Shown here in pieces: positions 29,450 through 59,294 of a DNA stretch of 64,000 nucleotides. Within the stretch, counting starts at the first letter, position 1. The number at the start of each line of letters is the position of its first letter. The position numbers and the translations under genes are program-made. The DNA is taken from contig JARLIK010000002.1 in the NCBI GenBank assembly GCA_031291755.1, positions 1 through 64,000 of the forward strand, read 5' to 3'. The DNA comes from Acidocella sp. (GTDB lineage: Bacteria; Pseudomonadota; Alphaproteobacteria; Acetobacterales; Acetobacteraceae). The notes beneath the pieces are model-generated. The model was not told where the DNA came from. It ran no database searches and was given only the letters and a program-made list of their open reading frames with translations.

Positions 29450-30322
29450 TTAAGGAGCTGTCCCCAGTAATGCCGACAGCGACAACCCGGGTTTCTTGAG
29501 ATTGCTTGCGACAGAGTCGGTCTCGGTTCTGACGCTGGCATTGTAATCATCAGGCGGCATGCCGGCGGGAAGATGCTGGGTGAGTACAAAATCCGGGCGG
29601 GGTTGCGTGTCGATATACAAGGCCACGTCAAAAGCGTCCTTGTCGCTTAGGTGGGCATTGCCCAGCGGCATGTTGCCTTTCACCCATTCCGCGAGCTTGG
29701 GCACATTGGCCAGACCCGCGCCGGCATTATAGCTGTTCGGGCCCCACACCGGCGGGAAGGTGCCTGGTATGCCCGCCCCTTGTGCGCCATGGCAGGCGGC
29801 GCAATCGGTTTTGTAAACCGCGGTGCCGGCTACAACATCAGCGTGGGTGGCAGCCTTGAGCATTGCGGGGAAAGGGCTTGGCTCAGCGGCAGACGCTGGG
29901 GCTAATATCGCCTTGCCCTGGTCGAGCCAACTGATATAGGCGGTCATGTCGACAACCAGCTTGCTATCGGTGCTCGGGCGCATGCCGTTCATGCTGCGCA
30001 TGAAGCAGTTGGCAATCCGGTCCTCAAGGGTGATCACAGCGCCCTCGCGCGGGGAGAAGGAGGGGAATTTGGTGGCGGTTTTAAGCAAATTGCCTGGATG
30101 ATCGTTGTTGCCGCCGTCAGTGTGGCAACTGTTGCACGTCAACCCATTGCCAACATTACCTTTGGACTCAGGGTCGGTAGTGGTGTTCATGATGGTGTCG
30201 TAGCCGCGTTGAACCGACTGTCCAAACGGCCCCGGCGGTAAATTTTGTAGCGGCGTGGCGCTGGCATGCGCCGAACCCGCAACAACAGTTAGTGCGATTA
30301 CTGTAACTATAAAATTTTTCAT
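29450..30322 (-). CDS. Diheme cytochrome c, TsdA (thiosulfate dehydrogenase)-like
   Basis: Signal peptide; CNSCH and CAACH heme motifs; LEDRIANCFMRSMNGMRPSTDSKLVVDMTAYISWL. Confidence 0.83.
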   Translation of the reverse strand: MKNFIVTVIALTVVAGSAHASATPLQNLPPGPFGQSVQRGYDTIMNTTTDPESKGNVGNGLTCNSCHTDGGNNDHPGNLLKTATKFPSFSPREGAVITLEDRIANCFMRSMNGMRPSTDSKLVVDMTAYISWLDQGKAILAPASAAEPSPFPAMLKAATHADVVAGTAVYKTDCAACHGAQGAGIPGTFPPVWGPNSYNAGAGLANVPKLAEWVKGNMPLGNAHLSDKDAFDVALYIDTQPRPDFVLTQHLPAGMPPDDYNASVRTETDSVASNLKKPGLSLSALLGTAP

Positions 30323-56874: not shown

Positions 56875-57597
56875 TTAAGCCACGTCTCGCCAGATTTTGC
56901 GTTTGGTAGCAATCGCCAGCAAGGTGAGGAAAATCAGGAAGATCACCGCCCGCAGGCCAATTTGCTTGCGCGCATCGAGATTGGGGTCAGAGGCCCAGGT
57001 GAGGAAGGCCGCAACGTCGGAAGCTTCCTGGGCGGTGGTCGCCTTGGTGCCGTCGGCATAGGTGACAGCATTATCCGTCAACGGTGCCGGCATCGCGATC
57101 TGGTTACCGGGGTAGGCGGCATTATAATAATGCTTCGCCATCAGGGTCACATCGGCCGGAGGGGCCTGATAGCCGGTAAGCAGATTATAGATATATTCGG
57201 TGCCCTTCGGCCGGGCGGCAACAATGTTCGAGAGATCGGGCGGAACAGCCCCGCCAAACGCAGCGGCGGCCTGGGATTTTGGCAGAGCGCTGATGAGACG
57301 GTCATCTAATGTGGCTGGCCGGTTGTCCAGCTTGATGCTGGCAGTGATGTCGGCCACCTGTTCGGTGGTCAGGCCAAGGGCGGTCAGGTCACGGTAATGC
57401 AGCGCGTTGGCTGAATGGCAACTTGCGCAGGCGGTTTGATAAACCAGGAAACCGCGTTGCAGGGCAGCTTGGTCGTACGACCCAAAGGTTCCTTGTGATT
57501 GCCAATGCAGCGGGCTGAGTGTGTCCTCGGCGTAAGCAGCGGAGCCAAAGGCGAGGAAAGCCGCCAGCAGGGCGGCAGCGGAGATGCCAAGTTTCAT
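56875..57597 (-). CDS. petC: Cytochrome c1 of a bc1-type complex
   Basis: VYQTACASCHSANALHYRDLTALGL; PPDLSNI; GNQIAMPAPLTDNAVTYADGTKATTAQEASDVAAFLTWASDPNLDARKQIG; C-terminal TM anchor. Confidence 0.93.
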   Translation of the reverse strand: MKLGISAAALLAAFLAFGSAAYAEDTLSPLHWQSQGTFGSYDQAALQRGFLVYQTACASCHSANALHYRDLTALGLTTEQVADITASIKLDNRPATLDDRLISALPKSQAAAAFGGAVPPDLSNIVAARPKGTEYIYNLLTGYQAPPADVTLMAKHYYNAAYPGNQIAMPAPLTDNAVTYADGTKATTAQEASDVAAFLTWASDPNLDARKQIGLRAVIFLIFLTLLAIATKRKIWRDVA

Positions 57598-58718
57598 TAT
57601 TTTGACTCCCGCGCGGTGACGAGTGGGGTGAGCACCAGAAAATGCAGAAAATACCAGCCGATGAAAATGATCATCAGGATCGCGTTAATCGTCGAGGGAC
57701 CGGCGGCGGCGGTCATGCCGAGCGCAATCACATCGAGTCCGAGGATCACCACCAGTAGCTTGTAGAGAAAACCAGGCTCTGAACGAGGGTCTGAGCGGTC
57801 CAGCCAAGGCATCGCGAACAGTACCGCAAAGGCAGCGAAGAAGGCCACGATACCCCCTTCGGTTCCTGGCAGAGCATGTGTCACGGCGGCCGCGGGCAGA
57901 AGGTACCAGGGCGGCGTCATCACGGCGGGCACCAGCAGCGGGTTGGCGGGTGCCGCGTTCAGCGGGTTTTCACCCAGATGCGGGGCAAAGAATACCAGCA
58001 CCGCAAACAGCAGCACATAAACCGACACCGCCACGAAATGATGGCTGGTGTAGTAGGGGTGCAAGGGTACGGTCTTTTTGGCAACCGGGGCGACGGCCTG
58101 CTTGGCATAATAATGTAAAACCAGCACGCCAAGAGCTATGAATGTCAGCAGCCCATGCATCATGGCCACGTGCCCGAGCGTGCCGTGGCCAGCCGGACCG
58201 CCCAAGACCCAGTTGGAAATATTACCAGGGAAGCTGGAAAGCCCAGCACCGGCCAGTGTCACGTCATGCAGGCTCCAGTGACTGACCGCGCCATCCTGCA
58301 TCGCATAGCCAAGGTAACCGACCAGCATCATCAGCAGCAGAAATGCCAGCTTGAGCCCCCATACCAATTCGCCGGGCAGCCGGTAGGCCCCGGTGATCAG
58401 GGCGTGGAAAATCGCCAGATATACGGCGGCGAACAGCATGGTGGTGCCGGTGGCGTGGAAGGAGCGGATCAGCCAGCCGTCATTGACGTTGCGCATGATG
58501 AACTGGATGGAATTATACGCGCCGTGGTCTGACGCCACATAATAGGCCGACAGCACCGCGCCGGAGAGCATCAGAAAGATCAGCGTTCCGGTGATCAGCG
58601 TGCCAAGGGCCGACAGATAAGGCCGGTTGGCGGGCAACGGCTTGTCACACACTTGAGCGCGAAAACAGGCGGCGAGGGGAAGCCGGGAGTCCAGCCAGGA
58701 TTTGGTTTGGTCTGACAT
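57597..58718 (-). CDS. petB: Cytochrome b of a bc1-type complex, divergent at key motifs
   Basis: FIMRNVNDGWLIRSFHATGTTMLFAAVYLAIFHAL; MMHGLLTFIALGVLVLHYYAK; PPWYLLP at the PEWY position. Confidence 0.87.
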   Translation of the reverse strand: MSDQTKSWLDSRLPLAACFRAQVCDKPLPANRPYLSALGTLITGTLIFLMLSGAVLSAYYVASDHGAYNSIQFIMRNVNDGWLIRSFHATGTTMLFAAVYLAIFHALITGAYRLPGELVWGLKLAFLLLMMLVGYLGYAMQDGAVSHWSLHDVTLAGAGLSSFPGNISNWVLGGPAGHGTLGHVAMMHGLLTFIALGVLVLHYYAKQAVAPVAKKTVPLHPYYTSHHFVAVSVYVLLFAVLVFFAPHLGENPLNAAPANPLLVPAVMTPPWYLLPAAAVTHALPGTEGGIVAFFAAFAVLFAMPWLDRSDPRSEPGFLYKLLVVILGLDVIALGMTAAAGPSTINAILMIIFIGWYFLHFLVLTPLVTARESK

Positions 58719-58733: not shown

Positions 58734-59294
58734 TTAACCGAGCTGAATTTGCGTAGCGTTGAGGAAGGTAAAGCGTGGAATCGCGAGATTTTTCGGGGCC
58801 GGGCCGCTGCGCACGCGCCCTAGCGGGTCGTAGATGCTGCCGTCGCACGGGCAGGTCCAGCCGTCGAGCGGGCCGCGCGGATCGGTAGGGCTGTTGCCCA
58901 GAAGTTCACATGAGATACCGGTATTCAGCCCGACAACGACCACAAAACTCTCGTAGCCGGGCTTAACACGGTCGGTATAATCGGCCGGGTCGGGTAAGGA
59001 AGATGGCACAACGGCCTGATTATCGGCAATCTGCTGCGGGGTCAGCTTGCGGATATAGATTGGCTGGCCGAGCCACATGACTCGCAATCCGGTGTTAGGC
59101 GCAATGCCGCCTACCTCAATAATGGGATTCGATACTGCAAGCTCGGCAGTGGTTGGGTTCAGCGCGTCGATAAACGGCCAAGCCGTCGCTCCCAGCGCCA
59201 CGGCACCTGCCGAAACCGTCAGGATCTTCAGAAAATCGCGCTTAGCTGGGGCTTCCACCCCGTCCTCAACCGCATGTGCCGCTGCATTTGCCAT
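58734..59294 (-). CDS. petA: Rieske-type subunit of a bc1-type complex with degenerate cluster-binding motifs
   Basis: [31 protein letters not shown] (Tat/TM anchor); [13 protein letters not shown]...[29 protein letters not shown]. Confidence 0.87.

Follow-up and report, generated by a model that had tools for sequence, protein, structure and literature searches.

The DNA analyzed here, the first 64,000 nucleotides of contig JARLIK010000002.1 of an Acidocella sp. assembly (the window), carries a petABC operon for a cytochrome bc1 complex. The operon is headed by petA, the gene of the Rieske iron-sulfur protein (ISP), with petB (cytochrome b) and petC (cytochrome c1) downstream on the same strand. 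The encoded PetA has lost three of the four ligands of the [2Fe-2S] cluster. Ligand loss in this genus is already known: an Acidocella ISP in which three or four ligands have disappeared but the disulfide pair is kept was described by Degli Esposti et al. 2023 (PMC10715153). The petA features are:

58734..59294, minus strand: petA, ligand-less Rieske (ISP) subunit, 186 amino acids (TIGR01416, 131.8 bits)
58908..58925, minus strand: PetA box 1, N124-T-G-I-S-C129 (canonical C-T-H-L-G-C), from codons and alignment
58836..58853, minus strand: PetA box 2, C148-P-C150-D151-G-S153 (canonical C-P-C-H-G-S), from codons and alignment

The petA frame runs from an ATG start to a stop codon with no internal stops. 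Box 1 is encoded from 58925 to 58908 by AAT ACC GGT ATC TCA TGT and box 2 from 58853 to 58836 by TGC CCG TGC GAC GGC AGC, the same codons that an earlier reading of the letters alone (the sequence-only reading) had given. Alignment to solved bc1 Rieske subunits placed Asn at the first Cys of box 1, Gly at its His and Asp at the His of box 2, confirming the claim of that reading that three of the four ligands are absent. The protein does not have the two Cys and two His that hold a cluster; as the same reading had noted, one ligand Cys (Cys148) and the disulfide pair (C129 and C150) remain.

PetA of the window scored well above the curated cut-off of TIGR01416, the profile of the bc1 Rieske iron-sulfur subunit (97.4 bits), and its N-terminal twin-arginine translocation (Tat)/transmembrane anchor matched PF10399 with 42.2 bits (cut-off 24); in the profile search it fell below the threshold of PF00355. 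The head predicted by AlphaFold2 had a predicted local distance difference test (pLDDT) score mostly above 90, with 112 residues at 90 or higher, and Foldseek aligned it to 1rie with a template-modelling score of 0.91 and a root mean square deviation of 1.9 Å, indicating that the Rieske fold is kept. In the window's genome, which is 84% complete, no second, ligand-bearing PetA turned up: it gave a single TIGR01416 match, and its PF00355 matches lay on contigs other than that of petA. Second TIGR01416 matches in other Acidocella genomes reached 20-22 bits and were mostly long frames unlike PetA.

PetA, cytochrome b and cytochrome c1 across Acidocella

Of the 37 genomes of the genus covered by a nearest-genome search, 35 had petA homologues, with 53-87% identity to PetA of the window. 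A scan of the GTDB collection gave 35 loci, including those of Acidocella aquatica, A. aromatica, A. aminolytica and A. facilis as well as metagenome-assembled genomes (MAGs). Residues were counted over the 35 Acidocella sequences with a usable petA, that of the window included. Asn124, Thr125, Cys129, Cys150, Asp151, Gly152, Ser153, Tyr155 and Asp156 were invariant, so that scoring the ligand positions in homologues, as the sequence-only reading had proposed, returned Asn and Asp in all 35. The box-1 His position was occupied by Gly or Ala. The remaining ligand, Cys148, was Cys in 23 sequences and Ser in 12, leaving these 12 with no ligand at all. The canonical ligands were invariant in 20 ligand-bearing relatives. 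The tip loops were the most conserved part of the Acidocella head (entropy 0.44-0.53 bits, compared with 1.13 bits for the base fold), and the petABC order and open frames were retained, with no internal stop in the 35 loci. Assembly error or decay in a single strain, either of which would have undone the sequence-only reading, was ruled out because four cultured species and a large number of MAGs agree. When the literature was searched for further examples of bc1 Rieske proteins without cluster ligands, nothing relevant came up.

The damage extends to cytochrome b, beyond the account of the sequence-only reading, which did not cover the prior publication either. The features of the two downstream genes are:

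57597..58718, minus strand: petB, cytochrome b, 373 amino acids, with degenerate Q-cycle residues (PF00033, PF00032)
58413..58415, minus strand: haem bH ligand position (equivalent to yeast H96), here Ala102, from alignment
57903..57914, minus strand: PEWY motif of the Qo site, here P-P-W-Y (Glu to Pro), from alignment
56875..57597, minus strand: petC, cytochrome c1, 240 amino acids, with the CASCH haem motif and Met ligand intact (PF02167, 243 bits)

The Glu of the Qo site was absent from the window's cytochrome b and was replaced by Pro in all 35 Acidocella sequences. Both bL ligands were retained across the genus (His in 35/35 and 34/35), and the bH positions were variable, one or both ligands being gone in most species. 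Cytochrome b of the window has the complete bL pair and only one of the two His at bH (Ala102/His202). Cytochrome c1, on the other hand, kept CxxCH and the Met-Pro of the sixth-ligand region in 34 of 34 Acidocella sequences, as CASCH and IAMP in the window. From what is established about the Q cycle, normal quinol:cytochrome c reduction should not survive the loss of the Rieske ligands together with the PEWY Glu and a bH ligand.

Selection was estimated as the ratio of nonsynonymous to synonymous substitution rates (dN/dS), the other check put forward in the sequence-only reading. Medians over close pairs (YN00 / NG86) were 0.097 / 0.146 for petA of Acidocella and 0.088 / 0.124 for that of ligand-bearing relatives, 0.120 / 0.246 against 0.035 / 0.064 for petB, and 0.063 / 0.173 against 0.073 / 0.108 for petC, values that are estimates and not formal tests because the pairs share branches and some members are MAGs. 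Since the petA values of roughly 0.10-0.15 are close to those of ligand-bearing petA, PetA appears to be under ordinary purifying selection. At matched petC identity (0.62-0.70), petB identity was 0.50 in Acidocella, compared with 0.845 in ligand-bearing relatives, and petA identity was 0.617 and 0.694, respectively. Constraint is therefore relaxed far more on cytochrome b than on PetA and c1. The release of cytochrome b while PetA and c1 are held points to the periplasmic subunits and not to a membrane scaffold. The predicted fold, the genus-wide ligand loss and a dN/dS of about 0.1 support the view of the sequence-only reading that this intact frame encodes a Rieske-fold protein that probably cannot bind a conventional [2Fe-2S] cluster.

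Acidiphilium relatives and the order of loss

Five genomes of Acidiphilium (genus g51) were compared: G225, G263, G128, G207 and G247, the last being A. multivorum AIU301, whose contig was 100% identical to plasmid NC_015187.1 of that strain over the 3.1 kb compared. All five had the PEWY Glu replaced by Pro and both bH ligands lost, with bL kept. The petA of G225 (L101) encodes all four Rieske ligands, though box 2 has Ala in place of Ser and Phe in place of Tyr. That of G263 (L110) is ligand-less and very diverged; both disulfide Cys are present, and Asp stands where box 2 normally has its His. In G128, G207 and G247, no PetA match passed the cut-off. Cytochrome c1 was shortened in G128 (L195), G263 (L197) and G207 (L198), and its Met-ligand stretch was apparently missing in G263 and G207.

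In the cytochrome b tree, Acidocella and Acidiphilium formed separate clades (support 100/100 and 100/99), with G225 within Acidiphilium. In the petA tree G263 could not be placed because of its long end branch (4.21). The simplest reading of these sequences places the damage to cytochrome b before the loss of the Rieske ligands, which perhaps happened twice.

Role of the remnant complex

The explanation that we favour, with about even confidence, is that PetA has a structural role, without a cluster, in a bc1 remnant that would be unable to run the Q cycle and whose useful part would be cytochrome c1. PetA would fold without a [2Fe-2S] cluster, held by the disulfide and by a re-packed tip containing the fixed Asn124 and Asp151, and would serve as a structural subunit of the remnant complex. 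Cytochrome b would now be mainly an anchor with one haem (bL) kept, and c1 would retain a working haem as a membrane-bound periplasmic c-haem. Most likely, c1 would be reduced by donors other than ubiquinol, passing the electrons on towards the aa3 oxidase. The window's genome contains a gene cluster for an aa3-type oxidase (a CuA-type motif is present in the adjoining subunit II-like gene) and further c-type cytochromes that are possible donors; reduction and oxidation of cytochrome c are therefore possible without bc1. The window itself encodes, at 29450-30322 on the minus strand, a di-haem c-type cytochrome of 290 amino acids that is a possible alternative electron carrier.

Two results weigh against this explanation. 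A. multivorum (G247) retains c1 with no petA match over the cut-off, so c1 is not strictly dependent on PetA. Moreover, cytochrome b, relaxed as it is, still shows selection, its dN/dS being well below 1, and has kept bL; it may for that reason do more than anchor.

The published proposal, citing Paracoccus work, is that the inactive bc1 is kept as a scaffold stabilizing complex I in a supercomplex (PMC10715153). Consistent with it, a NuoD match was present in every Acidocella genome searched and was over the cut-off in most. However, NuoD was also over the cut-off in 11 of 15 Acetobacterales genomes (at least 99% complete) without Rieske (TIGR01416) and c1 matches, three of these 11 (G069, G088 and G086) having an unfused NuoD frame. 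The persistence of complex I without bc1 in relatives weakens the scaffold role, which also sits poorly with cytochrome b, the membrane subunit, having lost the most constraint of the three. Complex I may depend on bc1 in Acidocella alone, but we regard the proposal as rather unlikely. The window's genome (G000) gave three NuoD matches over the cut-off (C38:41131-42282, C18:43519-44676 and C29:91205-92359), two of them in frames of about 600 amino acids that may be NuoCD fusions.

It is improbable that the Rieske head was repurposed, with Asn and Asp fixed at former ligand positions and the tip acting together with c1 either as a binding surface free of any cluster or as a site for a different metal; in that case, what was once an electron shuttle would now be a subunit under selection that has no redox role or carries another cofactor. 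Slow decay, with the operon on its way out and its conservation left over from past selection, would fit Acidiphilium as later stages of the same process, given the three genomes with no petA match over the cut-off, the long-branched ligand-less petA of G263 and the shortened c1 of G207 and G263. The petA dN/dS of about 0.1 over many species pairs, the invariant new residues and the absence of internal stops in the Acidocella loci argue against it, making decay a distinctly unlikely account. Least probable, and indeed doubtful, is a new cofactor or ligand site in which Asn124, Asp151 and their neighbours bind another metal or a partner: these two residues are strictly fixed while Cys148 varies, the tip is the most conserved part of the head and Asp recurs at the box-2 His position in G263, but neither ligand His survives, the only Cys outside the disulfide pair is a variable one, and a fixed Asn and Asp are equally compatible with hydrogen bonding in an apo fold.

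An entire genus retains a respiratory complex without residues essential to the Q cycle in two of its subunits, a natural experiment on the roles of bc1 subunits besides electron transfer. The question can be tested in cultured A. aromatica, A. facilis and A. aminolytica, and the selection pattern directs experiments to the periplasmic side and not to a membrane scaffold.

Comparison with known systems

The window agrees with the deranged Acidocella bc1 described in PMC10715153 in its origin, in the loss of ISP ligands with the disulfide kept and in the loss of a bH ligand (here one of two), bH ligand loss in Acidocella cytochrome b also being given in that source; it adds a further species. 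The same source states that Acidiphilium is without an ISP gene, whereas two of the Acidiphilium genomes examined here (G225 and G263) carry petA. Its main text, searched by word, mentions neither PEWY nor purifying selection. New here are the selection measurements, petA in two Acidiphilium genomes and complex I without bc1 in relatives.

The petABC remnants of Acidiphilium resemble those of Acidocella in the PEWY Glu to Pro change, the bH loss and the retention of bL, but differ in the Rieske subunit, which has intact ligands in G225, is ligand-less and very diverged in G263 and has no match over the cut-off in the other three. With the bc1 Rieske PetA proteins (TIGR01416; Rhodobacter and Paracoccus structures) Acidocella PetA shares the Tat/transmembrane anchor, the Rieske fold, the disulfide Cys, the Ser and Tyr of box 2, the Pro loop and the petABC operon; unlike them, it is without three, and in some species all four, of the four cluster ligands.
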